The notes beneath the pieces are model-generated. The model was not told the DNA's origin. It saw only the letters and a list, made by a program, of their open reading frames with translations, and ran no database searches. A DNA stretch of 64,000 nt from Candidatus Peregrinibacteria bacterium GW2011_GWF2_43_17. GTDB lineage: Bacteria > Patescibacteriota > Gracilibacteria > UBA1369 > UBA12470. How positions within the stretch are numbered: position 1 is the first letter of the stretch; every line of letters starts with the position of its first letter. The stretch is from assembly GCA_000999315.1 (NCBI GenBank), contig LCFW01000002.1, positions 1-64,000 on the forward strand. Direction: 5' to 3'. This document shows, piece by piece, positions 1 through 47,429 of this stretch. Made by a program: the position numbers and the translations under genes.

Positions 1-128
1 AAGTGGAATTCGTGTCGAAATTTCGCAACATTTCACGAAACAACCTTGTGCGTTGCGCGGTCAAGGTTTTAATGTAAAAATCGCCTCCGCCCCCACGTCA
101 TAGCACGCCGAACCCGTGTCGGGATTTC
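1..128 (-). repeat. Dispersed repeat, copy A (inverted relative to copy at 31171)
   Basis: Read on the minus strand, positions 128-90 match 31171-31209 at 36 of 39 bases. The similarity continues with small gaps through the shared words GACCGCGCAA, TTTCGTGAAA and TTTCGACAC to about position 12. The element is non-coding, richer in CG than its neighbours, and may extend past the window edge. Its nature (mobile repeat, regulatory or structural) cannot be told from the sequence. Confidence 0.7.
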
Positions 129-540: not shown

Positions 541-3432
541 ATGCACGCCGATCACATATATGTAAAGAAAGCCAGAATTCACAATCTCAAGAGCATAGAT
601 GTAAAAATCCCGCGCGACAAAATGACGGTTATTACGGGTTTGTCGGGGTCGGGGAAATCATCATTGGCTTTCGATACTATTTATGCCGAAGGGCAAAGAA
701 GATACGTGGAAAGTCTTTCGACTTACGCGCGACAATTTCTACAACTTATGGATAAGCCGGAAGTCGAATCGATAGAAGGCCTTTCGCCGGCAATTTCAAT
801 AGATCAAAAAACAGCAACCAGGAATCCTCGTTCAACCGTCGGTACAGTCACGGAGATTTATGATTTCTTGAGATTACTTTTTGCGAAAATCGGCCACCCG
901 CACTGCTATAAATGCGGCAAGGCGATCACCAGGCAAAACCCGAGCCAAATAGTTGACCATGTCGCCGCCATGGAAGAGGGAAGGCGAGTGCTTTTATTGT
1001 CACCTGTTATAAACGACAGAAAAGGCGGGATTCAAAAAGCCATAGAGAACATAAAAAAAGAAGGTTTTGTCAGAGTTGTTTTGGATGGCGAAATGTACAG
1101 CATCTTGGAAGTCCCAGAACTTGATGAGAATAAAAAACATTCACTCGATATAGTCGTAGACAGATTGATCGTTAAAGATCTCGGAAAAATGGTCCAAAAG
1201 CTGACGTCCGGACAAGAAATAGACCTGCCGAATCCGAACAGAACGCGACTTGCCGACTCGATAGAAACGGCGCTCAAACATGGCAATGGATCGGTTATAG
1301 TTCAAGATCATGAAACAAAAGAGAGGCAAATATTTTCCGAAAAATTCGCATGTGCGGATTGCGGAATAAGCTTGCCGGAAATCGAGCCGAGAAATTTTTC
1401 TTTCAACAGTCCTCACGGCGCATGCGAACAATGTCACGGACTCGGTACGAAATTGGAAGTCGACCCTGACCTCGTAATTCCAAACAAATCGCTTTCGATA
1501 AGCGAAGGAGCGATAATACCTTGGGCGGCAACAACATCGCATTTGAGTTGGTACAACAGGATTCTCGAGGCGGTAGCCACAAAACATAAGTTCTCGATAG
1601 ACGTGGCGGTTTCGGAAATGGATGAAGAAGATTTGAAAAAAGTTTTCTACGGGACAGGCGATGAAAAATATAGCGTCAAAATGGAATCCCTCGATGGAAA
1701 CGGAGCTTTTGAAGGAGAATATAAGACGAGGTTTGAAGGCGTGATTCCGAATTTGGAAAGAAGATATTTGGAAACAGACTCGGACTACATAAGAAGAAAA
1801 ATCGAAGATTACATGCGCGTGCTCAAATGCCCGAAATGTCACGGCAAAAGGCTTAAAAAAGAGATGCTTTCGGTAATTGTGAATGGGAAATCCATCATAG
1901 ATACGACGGAATTTTCGATAGCATCGGCAAAAGATTTTTTTGAGAGCTTGAATCTGACCGAAATGGAGAAAATAATCGCCGAGCCGATTTTAAAAGAGGT
2001 TCTCAACAGATTGAAATTCTTAAACAACGTCGGTATATCGTATCTCACTTTGGACAGAGCGGCAAACACTCTTTCCGGCGGGGAAGCGCAAAGAATCAGG
2101 CTTGCGACACAAATCGGTTCTCACCTTGTCGGAGTCCTTTACGTTCTCGACGAGCCTTCGATAGGTTTGCACCAAAACGACAACGAAAAATTAATAAAAA
2201 CCCTCCACTCGCTTCGTGACATAGGTAATACCGTGATCGTGGTTGAACACGACATAGACACCATGCTCGCGGCCGATTATATCCTCGATATCGGACCGGG
2301 CGCGGGTAAACACGGCGGAGAGGTGGTTTTCGCCGGCACGCCCGAAGAAATTTTAAAAGACAAAACATCGATAACCGGCCAATATCTTTCAGGTAAGAAG
2401 CAAATACCCATCCCTGAAAAAAGGCGAGAAGGAAACGGCAAATTCATAGAAATTCTAGGCGCATGCGAGCACAATTTGAAAGATATAGATGTAAAATTGC
2501 CTCTCGGCACTTTCGTCGGCATTTCGGGTGTCTCCGGTTCCGGCAAATCAACTCTTATTAATGATATTTTGGTCAAAAAAGTTTCGGCGACAATAAACAG
2601 ATCGAAAGTTTTTGCCGGCGCACACAGAGAAATCCGAGGCATTGAACATTTGGATAGGCTCATCAACATCGATCAATCGCCGATAGGCAGAACGCCGAGA
2701 TCGAATCCGGCGACATATACCGGAGTATTCACAGACGTAAGAGAACTTTTCGCATCAACGCCCGACGCGAAAATGCGCGGCTACAAACCCGGCAGATTCA
2801 GTTTCAACGTCAAGGGCGGACGTTGCGAGGCTTGCCAGGGCGACGGCATCAAGAAAATCGAAATGCACTTCCTCCCGGATGTCTACGTCCCTTGCGAGGT
2901 TTGTAAGGGTAAAAGATACAACCAAGAAGCCCTCGAAATTACTTACAGGGGCAAAAATATATCCGACGTCCTCGATATGACGGTTGATGAAGCGTTGGAG
3001 TTTTTCAGGTCTATCCCGGCAGTTAAAACCAAACTCAAAACACTCTCCGAAGTCGGCTTGGGATATATACATTTGGGACAGCCGGCAACAACTTTGTCGG
3101 GAGGCGAGGCCCAGAGAATAAAATTGGCGACCGAGCTTTGCAAAAGAGCTACGGGTCAAACGCTCTATGTTCTAGACGAGCCTACAACCGGTTTACATTT
3201 TGAAGATGTTAAAAGGCTTCTGGATGTTTTGCAGAAACTGGTTGATAAAGGCAACACGGTGCTCACAATCGAACACAATTTGGATGTCATTAAGTCGGTA
3301 GACTATATTATAGATTTGGGACCCGAAGGAGGAGACGAAGGAGGGGAAATAACGGGGGTGGGTACGCCGGAAGAAATAGCGAAAGAGAAAAAGTCATATA
3401 CGGGGAAGTGGTTGGCAAAGGTGGGGCTGTAG
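541..3432 (+). CDS. uvrA: Excinuclease ABC subunit A
   Basis: UvrA is the damage-recognising ABC ATPase of nucleotide excision repair; it works as a dimer with UvrB in the cytoplasm. The 963-residue product has two ATPase modules. Module one has Walker [10 protein letters not shown] near residue 33, signature LSGGEAQR near 511 and Walker [10 protein letters not shown] near 535. Module two has GVSGSGKST near 663, LSGGEAQR near 852 and VLDEPTTGL near 877. Zinc-binding cysteine pairs are visible (CYKC, CADC with CEQC, CEAC with CEVC). Length fits the family (about 940). An in-frame ATG at 469 would add 24 residues, but the UvrA consensus begins at [16 protein letters not shown], so 541 is chosen. 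The gene appears monocistronic. Confidence 0.97.
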
Positions 3433-3640
3433 CGGGACGGGAAATTTGTCTTTTGCACAATATGGGGTACTTTTGATATTTAACGGGATTTAATAAAATA
3501 TAATCAGATTAGATAAAACATCTTTAATTCTTTTAAAGCAAAACAAATAGCATCAAACGCAACTAAAAATTTATAAAACCATTTTAAACTCGCGAAAATA
3601 TGATAAACTTTAACTCGTAAACAAAAACAAAAACAAAAAT

Positions 3641-3669
3641 TTGAAAAATTAAACAAAGAGTGTTATAAT
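3641..3669 (+). promoter_or_regulatory. Sigma70-type promoter for the small HTH gene
   Basis: TTGAAA at 3641-3646, a 17-bp spacer and TATAAT at 3664-3669, with a TGn extension just before the -10. It lies 36 bp upstream of the ATG at 3705 in an AT-rich stretch (3433-3704) that holds nothing else recognisable. Confidence 0.75.
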
Positions 3670-3699
3670 TAAACAAAGTTAAACAAAATTAAATCAAAG
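3649..3699 (+). repeat. Helically phased TTAAACAAA direct repeats
   Basis: TTAAACAAA occurs at 3649, 3669 and 3679, and a variant TTAAATCAAA begins at 3689. Spacings of 20, 10 and 10 bp place the copies on one face of the DNA. They surround the -10 element and end just before the HTH gene at 3705. They may be an autoregulatory operator for that protein; this is inference. Confidence 0.65.
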
Positions 3700-5134: not shown

Positions 5135-6810
5135 TCGATGTAATCTTTTTTAGATATCGAATCCAAATACAATTGCGCGTCGAGAAGTAAAAGTTCAATC
5201 GCGGTAAAGAAAGAGTTTGTTTGAGCCATCTCATAAGAAAGAGCCTGATACATGGTGTTCATATCGGAAAGTTGCGTCGCTATCGAATACTCGGTCAAAG
5301 CTTCTATTTGTGTTTCCAATTCCTGCATCGTTAGGTTAAGGATTTCATCGGTGCTGGCGACCAAAGAAGTCGTGCCGTAAGTGCTTTGTACCAAAGCGGT
5401 ATATTTATCGGTTAAAGAAGAATAATCGGAGGCGACTGCGCCGGTTGTCGTATTCGGATATAAAGCCTCTTTTAAATTCGCGACTATATCACCCACGGAA
5501 ACGACGATATCATCGTTCGGCGGAGTCAAAATCGGATTGGTAAGAACAAAAACGCCGAAACTCGGGATCAATGCCGAAAAAGAAGATTTACAAGTCGCAT
5601 CTTCCATCATACTTCCGGTCAACTTGCTCGGACTTAAGTCGTGCGAAGTGACATCCGCGAGAGTTTGTTTGATATAACTTATATGGCAAGCGATACAATT
5701 GTCGGTCTCTTGATAAGAATAATCTTCGTCATCGCCGGTTATGAAATTGATTTCCAGACATAAAATATCATCGCAAGGGAGTTCTCTCGACCAATCGGCG
5801 GATTCGGGACCTTCCAAAGAGTTGTAAAAATCATCTGCGGCGGTCGGTTCCGCTGTCGAGGCGGTTGCGTCGGTGCCATTATCGTCGGACTTTCCGCCAC
5901 CATTGTCGGCCGAACTTTCAGCGGTGTCGGATGATTCGGAGCCAACGGCGCTTTCTTGGAAATCGGATATCGCGCCGGAAAGAGTATCGTCATCGAAACA
6001 TTCGAGCTTACTCTCGGAAATATCTTCGGCTGTATCTTCTTCGGACTTCTCGGCTCCCTCGGCGGATACGGCATCGGATGTGGATGCGGATTCGGATTCC
6101 GATTCGGATGTCACGGTATCGTCACTGGTGGCGGAAACGGCTTCTCCTTCATAAGATCTTGTCAAATCTTCATCCGTCTCCGCGGAATCGTCATCGCCGG
6201 AAACAGAATCATCGCCGGTCCAAGTGTCGGTTACGCCTGCGAACAATATGTATTCAATGGTTTTTAAATCCGTGATCAAGTCGAAACCCGAATCGGAAGT
6301 GTCGCCATTCGCGTACATTTCGTTGGTTTCGGTTTGGACGGAAAGTTCGCTTCTTAAAGATTCATTGGCCAAAGCGTTGTAAAAATACGTTTTCATTACC
6401 GCGCTTTTTTCATATCGTCCTTGTATAGTGCTCAAATCTTCGATTTCTTCGTATTCGCTGGCGGAAGAATCAAAAACCGTCATCGGATCCGCGCCCAACA
6501 AACTCCCATCGGTATTTCCGTCAACTATGGCGGTTACATAATCTAGATTGGAATCGCTCGTGCCATAACCGAAATAAGTTGCGGTAGATTCGAGAGCGGC
6601 GGTAGCCGGCTCGACTTTGACTTTATCATAAACATAATAATATAAATTTTGTCCGTTATCTTTGTATTTGTCTCCCGACGAGTCGTCCATCGTCTTATAA
6701 TACTCTTCCCACTCTCCGAAAACAACGGGAGCGAAAGAGTACAAAGAGACGATCACCACAACGGCTATCAGTATTTTGGAGCCCCATTTTTGATCGAAAG
6801 TTTTTTTCAT
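5131..6810 (-). CDS. Secreted or anchored protein with acidic Ser-rich linker, unknown function
   Basis: A 559-residue protein. The N-terminal hydrophobic segment (ILIAVVVIVSLYSFAPVVF, residues 12-30) is a signal peptide or anchor. Residues about 170-330 are low-complexity Ser/Asp/Glu/Ala sequence typical of extended surface linkers. The C-terminal third contains a CxxCH motif (NCIACHISYIK) and long helical segments (SYEMAQTNSFFTAIELLLLDAQ). CxxCH is the heme attachment motif of c-type cytochromes, but there is only one copy and no cytochrome maturation gene in the window, so heme binding is doubtful. The gene touches its upstream neighbour (TAATG) and overlaps the downstream one by four bases. 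Confidence 0.8.
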   Translation of the reverse strand: MKKTFDQKWGSKILIAVVVIVSLYSFAPVVFGEWEEYYKTMDDSSGDKYKDNGQNLYYYVYDKVKVEPATAALESTATYFGYGTSDSNLDYVTAIVDGNTDGSLLGADPMTVFDSSASEYEEIEDLSTIQGRYEKSAVMKTYFYNALANESLRSELSVQTETNEMYANGDTSDSGFDLITDLKTIEYILFAGVTDTWTGDDSVSGDDDSAETDEDLTRSYEGEAVSATSDDTVTSESESESASTSDAVSAEGAEKSEEDTAEDISESKLECFDDDTLSGAISDFQESAVGSESSDTAESSADNGGGKSDDNGTDATASTAEPTAADDFYNSLEGPESADWSRELPCDDILCLEINFITGDDEDYSYQETDNCIACHISYIKQTLADVTSHDLSPSKLTGSMMEDATCKSSFSALIPSFGVFVLTNPILTPPNDDIVVSVGDIVANLKEALYPNTTTGAVASDYSSLTDKYTALVQSTYGTTSLVASTDEILNLTMQELETQIEALTEYSIATQLSDMNTMYQALSYEMAQTNSFFTAIELLLLDAQLYLDSISKKDYIE

Positions 6811-43546: not shown

Positions 43547-43620
43547 ACCTGTCATGCGGCAGATCTTATATAATTTACCATTACAAGAAGTAACAAAACG
43601 CATTTTTGGCAAATTTACCC

Positions 43621-43648
43621 TTGACATCTTGCTAAAAAAAACCATAAT
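43621..43648 (+). promoter_or_regulatory. Consensus promoter of the DGR target gene
   Basis: TTGACA (43621-43626), a 16-bp spacer and CATAAT (43643-43648), 26 bp before the target ATG. The -35 is a perfect consensus, which suggests good expression. Confidence 0.8.
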
Positions 43649-43673
43649 TAAGTCGTAAATAACCAAAAATCAC

Positions 43674-44456
43674 ATGACTTTTGATCGATCAGTCCAAGGA
43701 AAAACAGTCGAAAGTGAAGAAAGTAGAAAACCAGAATTATCCGCAGAGGAAAAACTAGCTCATGATGCGAAGGGGCTTATTGATGTTGCAAAACGCAAAT
43801 ACCATAGGGGTATAATAACCGTGGATGAAGCTTTCGGGATGCTCTCAAGAGGCGAAGACCAAAAGTTTCATACGGACAGTGCAGAGGGATTTAAATTAAA
43901 AAGAGCCATCTCTATCGAAATAAAGAACGGAACATTAGAATTCACAGAAGAACAAAAAGCATTGTTATCTACCATAAAGACTCGTTTTGAAACTCAGTCA
44001 ACTCTCCATCAAGGAATACAATGGATGGATGTGGAGTCTTCTCTTCGCGGCAATACGGAAGCTTTTGCGGCCCTTAAATATATGGAAGAAACCGGTGGCG
44101 AACCTGATGTGCTCAGGGTTGAAGGTGGCGAATTTGTTTTCACGGATACATCAGCGGAAAGCCCGTCTGGCAGAAGAAATAAATCTCATATTGATGCTAC
44201 AGGAATAATAAAACCTATTAGCGGTCTAGAACTTACAAGTGAAGATGATTACATGTATTTGCAAGGTCTGAAACCTGTCGATTCGAATTCATGGAGTTGG
44301 TTAGGGAAGCCTTCGGCAGGCAGAGATCCGCTTGCTGCCGGCGATGCGCTCGATGGTCGTCGCCGTGGTGGCTCTGTGGATGTGCATCCGGACAATGCTG
44401 ACGATCCCTATGAGCGCAGGGGTTTCCGTTGCTCGCTAAGGGTCAAAAAATCTTAA
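43674..44456 (+). CDS. DGR variable (target) protein with C-type-lectin-like C-terminus
   Basis: A 260-residue protein without signal peptide or membrane helix. Residues 1-110 are charged and helical (EEKLAHDAKGLIDVAKRKY, DEAFGMLSRGEDQKFHT). From about residue 115 the sequence follows the pattern of formylglycine-enzyme/C-type-lectin variable domains of DGR targets (GIQWMDVESSLRGNTEAFAALKYMEETGGEPDVL, then MYLQGLKPVDSNSWSWLG). The last part, residues about 220-257 (LAAGDALDGRRRGGSVDV, then ERRGFRCSLRV), is encoded by the variable repeat. GFRCSLRV matches the conserved C-terminal strand of this fold. Each variable residue maps to an adenine-containing codon in TR. It is probably a ligand-binding protein whose binding face is diversified; the absence of a signal suggests cytoplasmic action or an unrecognised export route. 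Confidence 0.9.
   Translation: MTFDRSVQGKTVESEESRKPELSAEEKLAHDAKGLIDVAKRKYHRGIITVDEAFGMLSRGEDQKFHTDSAEGFKLKRAISIEIKNGTLEFTEEQKALLSTIKTRFETQSTLHQGIQWMDVESSLRGNTEAFAALKYMEETGGEPDVLRVEGGEFVFTDTSAESPSGRRNKSHIDATGIIKPISGLELTSEDDYMYLQGLKPVDSNSWSWLGKPSAGRDPLAAGDALDGRRRGGSVDVHPDNADDPYERRGFRCSLRVKKS
44326..44444 (+). repeat. DGR variable repeat (VR)
   Basis: It aligns with TR at a constant offset of 409 bp. Eleven of the twelve AAT/AAC (Asn) codons of TR are changed in VR, giving D, D, R, R, S, D, H, D, D, Y and R. The 3' part (GGGGTTTCCGTTGCTCG) is identical to TR and is the likely initiation-of-mutagenic-homing site. Alignment breaks at the 3' end after GGGTC and at the 5' end near 44326. Confidence 0.95.
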
Positions 44457-44522
44457 ACTTTGGATCCTTGAATTTTCCTTTCTTCTTTGTTTCTTGCATT
44501 TTTTATGTAACATTTGAACCGC

Positions 44523-44558
44523 ACGGTGAATAGTCACCCCGCTATGCGGGGCTACCGT
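44523..44558 (+). other. Compact multi-hairpin element upstream of TR
   Basis: ACGGT (44523-44527) and ACCGT (44554-44558) can pair around two inner options: GGTGA/TCACC with loop ATAG, and CCCCGC/GCGGGG with loop TAT. No T-run follows, so it is not a standard terminator. The stretch 44457-44734 has no gene; this element may be part of the TR transcript or end the target mRNA. Confidence 0.5.
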
Positions 44559-44625
44559 CGAGATGTTCTTTCTCCAAAAAAACTTTGAATTCGAAAAGAA
44601 GTTTTGAAAGGACATCGGAATAATT

Positions 44626-44856
44626 TTAGACCCTTAGGTTTGAGTGGAGTTTATCTCGCTTGTCGGGATGAAAAAAGCAAACCAATGCACACTTTATGGC
44701 TGTGGCTGTAAAAGTGTTTCGGACGAACTCCATCAACAACTTGCTGCCGGAAATGCGCTCAATGGTAATCGCAATGGTGACAATGTGAATGTGAATCCGA
44801 ACAATGCTGACAATCACAATGAGAACAGGGGTTTCCGTTGCTCGATAAGGGTCTAA
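44626..44856 (+). other. Inverted repeat bracketing the TR (probable TR RNA scaffold)
   Basis: TTAGACCCTTA at 44626-44636 is the perfect 11-bp reverse complement of TAAGGGTCTAA at 44846-44856. The second arm is the 3' end of TR plus the avd stop codon. A TR transcript could fold these ends together, enclosing about 209 nt. VR ends in CTAAGGGTC and shares nine bases of the arm. Confidence 0.6.
44735..44853 (+). ncRNA. DGR template repeat (TR)
   Basis: TR is the non-coding RNA template copied by the RT; adenines are misread during cDNA synthesis. It contains twelve AAY codons in the VR reading frame, which after mutation of the first two bases can give 15 amino acids and no stop. It has an open frame back to 44644, but its own amino-acid sequence lacks the rest of the target domain. 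It must be transcribed on the plus strand to give A-to-N changes in the target. Confidence 0.93.
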
Positions 44857-45197
44857 TTGTTTTGCATGGACTTGAGCCATCCGCCCAACATTCTTCCGAT
44901 TTCAGCGGTTTCGGATTGAAGTTGGAAAATTTTTGTTTCGTTCGCAAGTTTAAGATCGAGCAAAAGTCGAAGTTTCAAAGTGATTATTTCAAGCATTGCG
45001 TTTGCTTTTATGAGATATTGAGCTTTTGCCGGTTTTGGAGCGTTTTTCGCCATAATCAAGTATTCCAATAACGATAAAATGTTTTGCTCAAGACTTGCGC
45101 CAAGCGAGAATCTCCATCTTTTTGGCAAATGAGACCAAAGATCGGTAAAATGCTTATAAAGATCATAACTCCGCGTGATGATTGATAATGATTCCAT
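44853..45197 (-). CDS. avd: DGR accessory variability determinant (Avd, four-helix bundle)
   Basis: A 114-residue, mostly helical basic protein. The C-terminal segment TAEIGRMLGGWLKS is the hallmark of bacterial Avd and 23S-intervening-sequence four-helix-bundle proteins, and the middle (FSLGASLEQNILSLLEYLIMA) fits helix two. In known DGRs, Avd forms a pentamer that binds the RT and TR RNA and is required for retrohoming. Here the gene runs opposite to the target, TR and RT: its stop (44853-44855) touches the last base of TR, and its first 20 bases overlap the RT gene head-to-head. Bordetella and most described DGRs have avd on the same strand, so this layout is unusual. Confidence 0.85.
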   Translation of the reverse strand: MESLSIITRSYDLYKHFTDLWSHLPKRWRFSLGASLEQNILSLLEYLIMAKNAPKPAKAQYLIKANAMLEIITLKLRLLLDLKLANETKIFQLQSETAEIGRMLGGWLKSMQNN

Positions 45198-46113
45198 AGA
45201 TTTGAGCTTAAGTAATATTTGGAAGTGTTGGTTTGAATATAAGAAAGGAAAGAAAATCGGTCGCGAGTTCTTAATATTCCAAGATAAGTTGGAAGCGAAT
45301 ATTCAATCGATTCATGCCGACTTGAATTTCGGAGAATATCGGCATGGAGAATACCGTACATTCACGGTACGAGATAATAAAAAGAGAGAAATTTCAGTGG
45401 CGGAGATTCGCGATCGAGTAGTCCATAGATTGGTTTATAATTATTTGGTGCCGATTTTTGATAAAACTTTTATTTATGACGCTTGGTCGTGCAGAAAAGG
45501 GAAAGGTCTTTTGGGGTCAATCGAACGAGCGCAAAGCTTCACGAATTCTTATCCGAATTGTTTTATTTGGCGAGCGGATATAAGGAAATTTTTTGACAAT
45601 GTGGATCGCGAAATTCTATTTAAACTTATTGAAAGAAAAATAAAAGATAAAAAAGCACTTCGGATTATCGGAGAAATAATCGAAAGTTATCCATGCGGGA
45701 TTTCGATAGGGAATTTAACAAGCCAGATTTTCTCAAATATATATCTGAACGAATTGGATCGTTACATAAAACATGAAATAAAACCTTTGGCATATCTGCG
45801 TTATGGCGATGATTTCATCGTTTTGAGGGAATTAAAATATGAATCAATAAACGACAAGAGCCAAATAACGGATTTTTTAAAACAGAATTTACGACTTGAT
45901 ATTCATACGGAGAACAATCAAATTTTCAAAGCGAAACACGGATTGAAATTTCTCGGATGTGTAATATATCCAAAAGGCAGAACGCTTAACGAAAGAGCAT
46001 GGAATACAATTAAGTGCAATTTGGACATGCGAAATTTATCAAGCTATCACGGACTCATGAAAAAGCACTCAAGTCGCAAAAAAATAAGACAATTCAACTG
46101 GCTTTTGTGCTAA
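45178..46113 (+). CDS. DGR reverse transcriptase
   Basis: A 311-residue RT of the DGR/group-II-like lineage. Catalytic motif RADIRKFFDNVDR (first Asp at residue 134), the DGR-specific IGNLTSQIFSNIYLNELD (residues 177-183 replace the QGxxxSP of other RTs), and YGDDFIVL (residues 209-212) are all intact. The thumb part ends with HGLKFLGCVIYPKGR. There is no maturase, endonuclease or retron-type extension. Length is typical (300-400). A GTG at 45175 is an alternative start one codon earlier. The RT copies TR RNA with adenine infidelity and the cDNA replaces VR in the target gene. Confidence 0.95.
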   Translation: MIDNDSIDLSLSNIWKCWFEYKKGKKIGREFLIFQDKLEANIQSIHADLNFGEYRHGEYRTFTVRDNKKREISVAEIRDRVVHRLVYNYLVPIFDKTFIYDAWSCRKGKGLLGSIERAQSFTNSYPNCFIWRADIRKFFDNVDREILFKLIERKIKDKKALRIIGEIIESYPCGISIGNLTSQIFSNIYLNELDRYIKHEIKPLAYLRYGDDFIVLRELKYESINDKSQITDFLKQNLRLDIHTENNQIFKAKHGLKFLGCVIYPKGRTLNERAWNTIKCNLDMRNLSSYHGLMKKHSSRKKIRQFNWLLC

Positions 46114-46124
46114 AATCGAAGCCG

Positions 46125-47429
46125 ATGGAAAACACTTCGCTAGAGATTGTGAAACTTCTCAAATCCAAAGGCCACTCCGCCTACTGGGCCGGTGGTTGTG
46201 TTCGCGATATGCTTTTAGGCACGCAACCGAAAGATTACGACATAGTCACAAGCGCGAAGCCTGACGAAATCGAAAAACTTCTCGAACACACGATTCCGAT
46301 AGGGAAGGAGTTCGGAGTAATTTTAGCTGTAAAAAACGGACACCATTTCGAGATTGCAACATTTAGATCGGACAGCGGATACTCGGACGGTAGAAGACCT
46401 GACGCGATAACATTTACTCACGCCGAAGACGACGCAAAGAGACGGGACTTCACAATTAACGGACTTTTTTTCGACCCGATTGAAAAAAAACTGCACGATT
46501 TCGTTGATGGAAAAAGAGACATTGCCGACAAAATCATAAAATTCATCGGCGACCCTCATGAAAGAATTTTGGAAGATCATTTGCGAATAATTCGCGCAAT
46601 TAGATTTAAATCCACTTTGGATTTTCAATATCACCCCGATACTTACAAAGCGATCAAACATCACTCTCATCTATCGGCGAAGGTTTCAGGTGAACGCCTG
46701 CGCGACGAACTCAATAAAATGATCGCGGGCGACAATCCGATCCGCGCATTTTCGGACATGGAAGATACAGGAGTACTGCAACATGTCATTCCCGAATTAG
46801 TTGAGTTGAAAGGTGTCGCGCAACCGCTTGAATTTCACCACGAAGGTGACGTTTGGGATCACACAATGCAATGCTTGAAATCGCTTCAACCTCATCATAC
46901 TTTGCGAGAAAGATGGGCGGTTTTATTTCACGATATAGCCAAGCCGAAAACTTTTGCCCAAAAAGAGAGAATCAGATACGACAAGCACCCCGAAGAGTCT
47001 GCAAAAATGGCAACGAAAATCCTGGATCGTCTAAAATTTCCTCGTGCTTTTATAAAAGAAGTGGCATGGGCGATCGAGCACCATTTCAACATGAAGCAAA
47101 TTATCGAGATGGAAAAAGGCAGACAACGAAAATGGTTTTTACATAAAGAGTTCCCGACATTGATGACGGTTTTCAAAGCCGATATAGCAGGCACGACTCC
47201 AAGTGATTACACGATGTTTAATACGCTTTCCGAGATTTACGAATTGGCGAAAAAAGAGTTGGGCGATGGTCCGAAAAAACTTATAACCGGCGAAGAAGTA
47301 ATGGAAATATTAGGTATGTCTCCGGGCGCGAAGGTTGGCGAAATCCTCGATGAGATTCATGAAAGACAACTTGCGGGGGAGATAAAGACAAAGAAGGATG
47401 CGATTAGATGGGTTAGTGGACGCGAATAG
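46125..47429 (+). CDS. CCA tRNA nucleotidyltransferase / poly(A) polymerase family with HD domain
   Basis: A 434-residue class II nucleotidyltransferase. The NTase head has AYWAGGCVRDMLLG, the catalytic KDYDIVTSAKPDEIE and RRDFTINGLFFDP. RNA-binding neck motifs follow (EDHLRIIRAIRFKSTLDFQ, SGERLRDELNKMI). Then comes an HD phosphohydrolase domain (FHHEGDVWDHTMQCL, LFHDIAKPKTF). This combination is typical of CCA-adding enzymes that repair or add the tRNA 3' end. The ATG at 46125 is 11 bp after the RT stop; a longer frame back to 46014 would overlap the RT and is rejected. Confidence 0.93.
   Translation: MENTSLEIVKLLKSKGHSAYWAGGCVRDMLLGTQPKDYDIVTSAKPDEIEKLLEHTIPIGKEFGVILAVKNGHHFEIATFRSDSGYSDGRRPDAITFTHAEDDAKRRDFTINGLFFDPIEKKLHDFVDGKRDIADKIIKFIGDPHERILEDHLRIIRAIRFKSTLDFQYHPDTYKAIKHHSHLSAKVSGERLRDELNKMIAGDNPIRAFSDMEDTGVLQHVIPELVELKGVAQPLEFHHEGDVWDHTMQCLKSLQPHHTLRERWAVLFHDIAKPKTFAQKERIRYDKHPEESAKMATKILDRLKFPRAFIKEVAWAIEHHFNMKQIIEMEKGRQRKWFLHKEFPTLMTVFKADIAGTTPSDYTMFNTLSEIYELAKKELGDGPKKLITGEEVMEILGMSPGAKVGEILDEIHERQLAGEIKTKKDAIRWVSGRE

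Follow-up and report, generated by a model that had tools for sequence, protein, structure and literature searches.

Antisense avd and a candidate 5' RNA scaffold in the DGR of a Candidatus Peregrinibacteria bacterium

We analyzed the diversity-generating retroelement (DGR) in a stretch of 64,000 nucleotides from Candidatus Peregrinibacteria bacterium GW2011_GWF2_43_17 (contig LCFW01000002.1, positions 1 to 64,000; hereafter the window), where avd runs antisense between the template repeat (TR) and the reverse transcriptase (RT) gene. The arrangement is probably best accounted for by a discrete template RNA consisting of a 5' scaffold, the TR, and a short 3' flank, which would be closed by an anchor segment; avd would lie behind this RNA, converging on it and diverging from RT. 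The locus itself is an ordinary-sized DGR with target and variable repeat (VR), TR, avd, and RT, arranged as is the norm in its phylum.

Layout of the locus and identity of avd

The features that mark a DGR are all present in the locus: an A-specific TR/VR pair, an RT adjoining the TR, and a VR at the 3' end of the target (Table 1). The VR forms the last codons of the DUF4256 gene and ends 9 bases before its stop codon. When the local alignment was run with a milder mismatch penalty, the TR/VR match extended to 44856, with one non-A mismatch. We found no third TR-like copy in the genome. An open frame of 70 amino acids at 44644-44856(+) contains the TR and resembles the DUF4256 C terminus (E 0.014), as expected because the TR is a copy of the target's end. 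The best NCBIfam score of the RT was to a group II intron RT/maturase model, below that model's cutoff. Mutagenic retrohoming is a candidate activity of this DGR.

Avd is a five-fold barrel bound to the RT. A profile search of the 114-residue frame against bAvd, suggested with the original prediction, gave a match to Pfam PF22296 above its cutoff (E 7.6e-14; 52.6 bits, cutoff 40). The frame also matched NCBIfam NF033474 DivGenRetAVD (6.1e-19; 68.3 bits, below the equivalog cutoff of 80) and phrog_3206, "Avd protein of DGR" (3e-19), and its only matches in a PDB profile search, both weak, were Bbp7/Avd of BPP-1 (4dwl, E 0.015; 8ub7, E 0.076). Across 13 aligned Avd sequences, identity to the window protein was 34-68%, and the motif EIGRMLGGW was nearly invariant. 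This strong conservation implies that the frame is a protein gene and does not arise by chance. Thus, judged by profile and alignment, it is a genuine Avd gene.

The geometry that had been predicted for this gene was confirmed. The avd stop triplet occupies 44853-44855 of the plus strand, so that its first base is the last base of the TR, and the avd and RT start regions overlap by 20 bp, or by 23 bp if the RT starts at the GTG at 45175. Among loci of the window subclade, the overlap was 20 bp in 21 of 24 and 23 bp in 3 of 24, as measured from RT profile position 1, although not all loci have an ATG there. A scan for promoter-like sites was uninformative, with three found in the window and 2.0 expected.

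Table 1. Features of the DGR locus, in window coordinates
Feature	Position	Strand	Basis
DGR target gene, 260 aa, DUF4256 (PF14066)	43674..44456	+	profile match, E 2.8e-29
Variable repeat (VR)	44326..44444	+	119 bp; 22 differences from TR, 22/22 opposite TR adenines
Putative 5' RNA scaffold of template RNA, model R1 (228 positions, 40 pairs)	44520..44737	+	covariation; only strong genome match, E 3.9e-43
Helix 1: 44523-44527 with 44554-44558	within 44523..44558	+	100% of cells paired
Helix 2: 44537-44542 with 44546-44551	within 44523..44558	+	81.6% of cells paired
Helix 3: ~44562-44572 with 44606-44616, encloses helix 4	44562..44616	+	window fold, alignment pair counts, covariation
Helix 4: ~44580-44585 with 44599-44604	inside helix 3	+	window fold, alignment pair counts, covariation
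Anchor segment UAGACCCUUA; its reverse complement, at 44846-44855, spans the TR 3' end and the avd stop	44627..44636	+	alignment, MFE, flank test
Helix 5: 44650-44658 with 44664-44672	44650..44672	+	75.9% of cells paired
Helix 6: 44695-44700 with 44705-44710	44695..44710	+	88.6% of cells paired
Template repeat (TR)	44735..44853	+	alignment to VR
Anchor partner at TR 3' end, containing all three bases of the avd stop codon (44853-44855, minus-strand reading)	44846..44855	+	MFE, flank test
avd, 114 aa, ATG start, TAG stop	44853..45197	-	Pfam, NCBIfam, PHROG and PDB profile matches; conserved alignment
Promoter-like TTGGCA-18-TAAAAT inside avd, upstream of RT	45122..45151	+	weak
Overlap of RT and avd start regions, 20 bp	45178..45197	.	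RT ATG at 45178, avd ATG ending at 45197
DGR reverse transcriptase (RT), 311 aa from ATG	45178..46113	+	RVT_1 2.3e-15; phrog_1423 3.8e-80

Orientation of avd among relatives

The first relatives examined already showed that window-type loci with both parts have avd antisense, with a start overlap of about 20 bp. These relatives carry the labels Ca. Peregrinibacteria, Gracilibacteria, Peribacteria, Berkelbacteria, or Patescibacteria group. The survey of avd orientation that had been proposed with the original prediction was based on 184 RT loci: 30 from a search of the order, 34 from class and phylum searches, and 120 places picked from the match lists. The 120 picked places nearly all reach the RT N terminus, and, among the matches listed, weak RTs are undersampled. 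We found that avd lies antisense and head-to-head with RT in 155 of these 184 loci of the same phylum, among the matches listed, which corresponds to 155 of the 165 in which an avd was found. Ten loci have avd in the sense orientation, 8 lack the RT N terminus, and in 11, no avd was found; of these 11, 8 have at least 700 bp upstream of RT and 3 have less. Mapped on an RT tree (190 rows, FastTree, many weak branches), orientation needs three changes. The survey does not support reading the antisense layout as a compact regulatory device peculiar to this locus: the layout is the rule, and the tree needs only those three changes. As to whether relatives can lack avd and still keep an active DGR, no avd was found in at least 700 bp upstream of RT in 8 of the 184 loci; a TR-like pair was called in one of these (L237), where it sits on the opposite strand, at the locus edge.

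Of the 176 loci scanned, 141 yielded a TR/VR pair, and in the best pairs 2456 mismatches fall at TR adenines and 60 elsewhere. In 131 of the 133 antisense loci with a pair, the TR is on the same strand as RT and lies past the avd stop, which means that most of the TR-RT interval is avd read backward. The order VR, TR, antisense avd, and RT on the RT strand holds in 129 of the 133. The interval from VR to TR has a median of 342 nt and a 10th percentile of 298 nt. In four sense-avd loci (L058, L194, L230, and L232), the TR lies 0-41 nt from RT, and the gap between avd and TR is 141-230 nt; in L232, the TR overlaps the inferred RT start. An old inversion of avd in an ancestor, kept by descent and unlinked to the RNA layout, would fit both the few switches of orientation on the tree and the existence of sense-avd relatives with a 5' interval. 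However, the constant order, the constant side of the TR, and the tight 20- or 23-bp overlap within the window subclade suggest a constraint, and we regard such a frozen accident as possible but somewhat unlikely. It is in any case compatible with the 5' scaffold itself.

Several loci deserve separate mention. A second, degraded DGR in the same genome (L002; G000:C15), with an avd remnant at 1344-1520(-) and an RT fragment at 1501-1938(+), keeps the head-to-head avd and RT starts with a 20-bp overlap. L062 and L069 are decaying, with a broken avd and no TR found. In L042/L077, the TR/VR pair is intact, and the avd match is without its N-terminal half. L067 has one TR (3567-3678) and two VRs, one upstream (3123-3234) and one about 2.4 kb downstream (6102-6213). 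The RTs of some relatives matched at the class level (e.g., G134, G169, and G205) contain many in-frame TGA codons, which suggests that these genomes read TGA as a residue. Genetic code 25 is used in some Gracilibacteria.

Di- or tetranucleotide repeats (AC, CT, GA, AT, or AGCA; 5-19 units) were present inside the RT of 34 of the 154 antisense-avd RT loci, among them L034, L035, L042-L044, L047, L048, L050-L052, L129, L140, L178, L185, L197, L198, L200, L201, L205-L207, L210, L212, and L223-L225. All 34 lie near nt 349-382 or 503-573 from the profile match. The density of repeats was 0.24 per kb in the RT, as compared to 0.068 upstream of it, and an early stop was found in 21 of the 34 RTs with a repeat versus 5 of the 120 without (Fisher p 9e-13). 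The window RT carries no microsatellite. The pattern looks like candidate phase variation of the mutator enzyme, the main alternative being assembly error at the repeats. Programmed frameshifting had been considered for the split RTs of relatives and was dropped because the microsatellites explain most of them. A literature search at the level of titles and abstract openings returned no paper on phase variation of a DGR RT.

A structured region and an anchor 5' of the TR

An alignment of 16 loci from VR end to TR end revealed conserved blocks between the two repeats. In an alignment of 19 sequences with 40 pairs in six helices, 85.9% of cells were paired, and 29 pairs showed changes on both sides; both-side changes were present in 8 of the 11 pairs of helices 1 and 2. 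We counted 118 both-side changed cells, as compared to 43.3 in shuffles (0 of 500), and the covariation score was 0.482 versus at most 0.179 with slid partners. Because the structure was fitted partly by eye, and helices 3 and 4 were adjusted after the pair counts had been seen, these covariation figures lean toward the structure; furthermore, as the loci are related by descent, shuffle counts, like the t values given below, are inflated.

The alignment omits the divergent or additional sequences L044, L063, L087, L089, L096, L097, L140, and L178, together with the near copy L077, and the first eight served as a test on sequences outside the fit. Model R1 matched all eight (E 1.9e-36 to 8.7e-8). 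It also matched seven sources from its own alignment (the window and six under other names) and gave no match on 15 of the 30 sources, which comprised other RNA groups, five sense-avd loci, BPP-1, and the degraded L002. A second RNA group, picked by motif and comprising 44 of the 103 loci examined, has a different structured block of 190 nt upstream of the TR, whose consensus fold is -11.7 kcal/mol versus 0 in 100 column shuffles, a lenient control. Since R1 misses the other RNA groups, the scaffold may or may not be homologous across groups.

The window's own MFE fold pairs the anchor segment with its partner at the TR 3' end (z -2.87). For a comparison across loci, the 30-nt TR 3' flank was scored against the segment 80-150 nt upstream of TR, either from its own locus or from 40 others. 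Across 125 loci, own scores exceeded those with other loci (t=11.8), and 56 loci beat 95% of the others, where about 6 were expected. The VR flank gave a lower value (t=8.7; 42 of 125). When only bases outside the repeat were counted, the TR flank scored t=7.8 (38 of 125) and the VR flank t=3.9 (18 of 125), while the last 18 nt of the TR reached t=3.7 (13 of 125). Two controls, taken from the middle of the TR and from antisense avd, were near 0, and in other segments the score fell off with distance. Taken together, these scores place the pairing mainly within the template RNA. The anchor fits the VR flank better than the TR flank by at least 6 in 7 of the 125 loci. In L035 and L045 (= L071, L079), it matches the VR 3' flank over 16 nt, with a score of 38 versus 25.5 and 28 for the TR flank, as if the RNA could also recognize the target or the TR had drifted.

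The interval 5' of the TR follows the target gene and could belong to the target transcript, so that it might instead be a leader or regulatory element of something else, such as a 3' UTR of the target or a riboswitch-like control. Against this, the interval reaches the TR and pairs specifically with the TR 3' flank. No Rfam family matched 43600-46200 at its gathering score (best 20.4 bits, cutoff 50), and the sole strong match of R1 in the genome is the DGR (next match, E 0.36). We thus consider such an element distinctly unlikely.

In the preferred reading, that of a discrete template RNA, pairing of the anchor would close the TR into a loop and bring its 3' end beside the scaffold. The scaffold would replace the spacer of BPP-1, binding RT-Avd and placing the cDNA start. 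With the scaffold on the 5' side, nothing would be needed between TR and RT, and avd could fill this interval, facing the RNA and divergent from RT, with Avd and RT expressed from opposite strands and the TR RNA ending against the avd 3' end. The layout, the covariation, the complementarity of the anchor, and the terminator-like sites described next are observed in the sequences; the transcription units, the binding of RT-Avd to the scaffold, and the priming site are what we infer.

Terminator-like sites bear on where such an RNA would end. On the TR strand, 62 of 130 loci, or about half, have a hairpin with a T-run just after the TR, as compared to 10.2 in dinucleotide shuffles and to 14 and 4 in two control regions, the avd body and the region upstream of TR. 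The hairpins start a median of 12 nt after the TR, stop about 20 nt short of the last Avd codon, and would end the TR RNA before avd. The window subclade is absent among the listed examples, and neither strand has a terminator-like site at the window's TR/avd junction. In the avd direction, such sites were found before the TR in 15 of 130 loci (1.2 in mononucleotide shuffles, which are lenient; it was the TR-direction test that was repeated with dinucleotide shuffles and the two control regions). With so few sites, and none in the window, avd transcripts could run into the TR.

The TR 3' flank of the window is avd itself, and the distance from TR end to avd stop is at most 10 nt in 54 of 130 loci. 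This abutment, which in the window amounts to overlap at 44853-44855, and the rarity of avd-direction terminators favor the regulatory device raised in the original prediction, in which avd and TR RNA would be mutually antisense, so that making Avd and mutagenizing would restrict or preclude one another. However, the TR-direction terminators argue against it, and without readthrough of avd transcripts the overlap spans just a few bases; such a device is therefore unlikely.

It is also conceivable that the scaffold still lies 3' of the TR, written in the antisense strand of avd, since in the window the stretch from TR to RT is taken up by avd alone. In a test that used 24 of 49 loci, those judged to be of the window subclade, and ignored kinship, codon identity exceeded that of synonymous shuffles at the avd 5' end (z ~4.6-4.7) and slightly at the 3' end (z 2.9). 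The TR-proximal 90 nt folded somewhat more strongly than synonymous shuffles (z -0.87 ± 0.37), driven by L007, L017, and L081, and the TR flank gave a weak signal against the downstream segment +22..92 (t=3.6), with none further on. In contrast, RNAalifold detected no structure on the avd antisense strand in five segments of 24 sequences, the codon signal at the 5' end falls where avd overlaps RT and the region upstream of it, the terminator-like sites would halt the TR strand before avd, and an alternative scaffold is present 5' of the TR. Such dual coding is very unlikely. Together, codon conservation, fold energy, and RNAalifold yielded no consistent structure in the avd antisense strand, which we read as a negative outcome that makes such structure improbable. 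In single loci, the last 90 nt of avd do fold strongly on this strand (3 of 24: L007, z -3.7; L017, -5.5; L081, -5.5).

The 5' position of the scaffold would thus be the better-supported explanation of the antisense avd, as compared to antisense regulation. It does not by itself require an antisense avd because the sense-avd loci L058, L194, L230, and L232 also have most of their spare sequence before the TR. A broader proposal, for which we see the chances as evenly balanced, is that a phylum-level group of candidate-phylum bacteria uses a permuted template RNA. This would be an autonomous, terminated small RNA with the scaffold for RT-Avd 5' of the TR and an anchor that presents the cDNA start by pairing with the TR 3' flank. 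Such an RNA would form a new architectural class and leave room on its 3' side for avd in antisense; many DGRs of the group would also have their RT switched on and off by microsatellite slippage.

Comparison with known systems

Patescibacteria/CPR DGRs are described as "DGR clade 2" in the portion of Roux et al. 2021 (PMC8144416) available to us, and the same portion contains no mention of avd orientation or of the RNA. The window DGR resembles that clade in being a cell-encoded DGR of candidate-phylum bacteria and very probably belongs to it. The "inverted" DGRs of DiGReF, as described in the accessible part of PMC3521204, show that RT, TR, and VR need not share one strand; there, the inversion is among RT, TR, and VR, whereas in the window these three agree and avd alone is inverted. 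No statement on an antisense avd or a 5' scaffold was found in the accessible parts of PMC3521204, PMC8144416, PMC8867640, PMC6642488, PMC12875486, PMC10053308, PMC4372165, and PMC10907252, and orientation may be shown in Paul et al. 2017 and Wu et al. 2018. As earlier gene maps may show it, we do not claim the antisense orientation itself as new. Among phages, avd is on the RT strand in Burkholderia phage Magia, and so is an Avd-like "23S rRNA-intervening sequence protein" in Aeromonas phage phiARM81mr; five other phage records have no gene annotated as avd.

The window locus is like BPP-1 (mtd, avd/bbp7, TR, and brt) in its C-terminal VR in the target, its A-specific TR/VR differences, and its recognized Avd and RT families. 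As the original prediction had noted, the layout differs from that of the well-studied DGRs: in BPP-1, mtd with the VR, avd, TR, and brt all lie on one strand, with avd upstream of TR, whereas the window has avd antisense between TR and RT, with overlapping avd and RT starts. The distance from TR to brt is 144 nt on the same strand in BPP-1, and this spacer 3' of the TR is a structured RNA scaffold that recruits RT-Avd and primes cDNA, according to the part of PMC12875486 that was available. In the window, the TR-RT interval consists of antisense avd and shows no consensus structure, the RT strand carries no avd ahead of the TR, and the candidate scaffold is 5' of the TR. BPP-1 is the one phage system in which it is known how a DGR RT finds its template and where it starts, and the RNA structure there follows the TR. 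Phylum-wide DGRs with a 5' structure would provide a sequence rule for compact DGRs, an anchor about 110 nt upstream of TR that is complementary to the TR 3' flank, and would caution annotation tools against assuming that avd shares the strand of RT. Compared with BPP-1, they would separate the essential feature of the RNA, pairing at the TR 3' end, from the dispensable ones, namely the side of the scaffold and the strand of avd.
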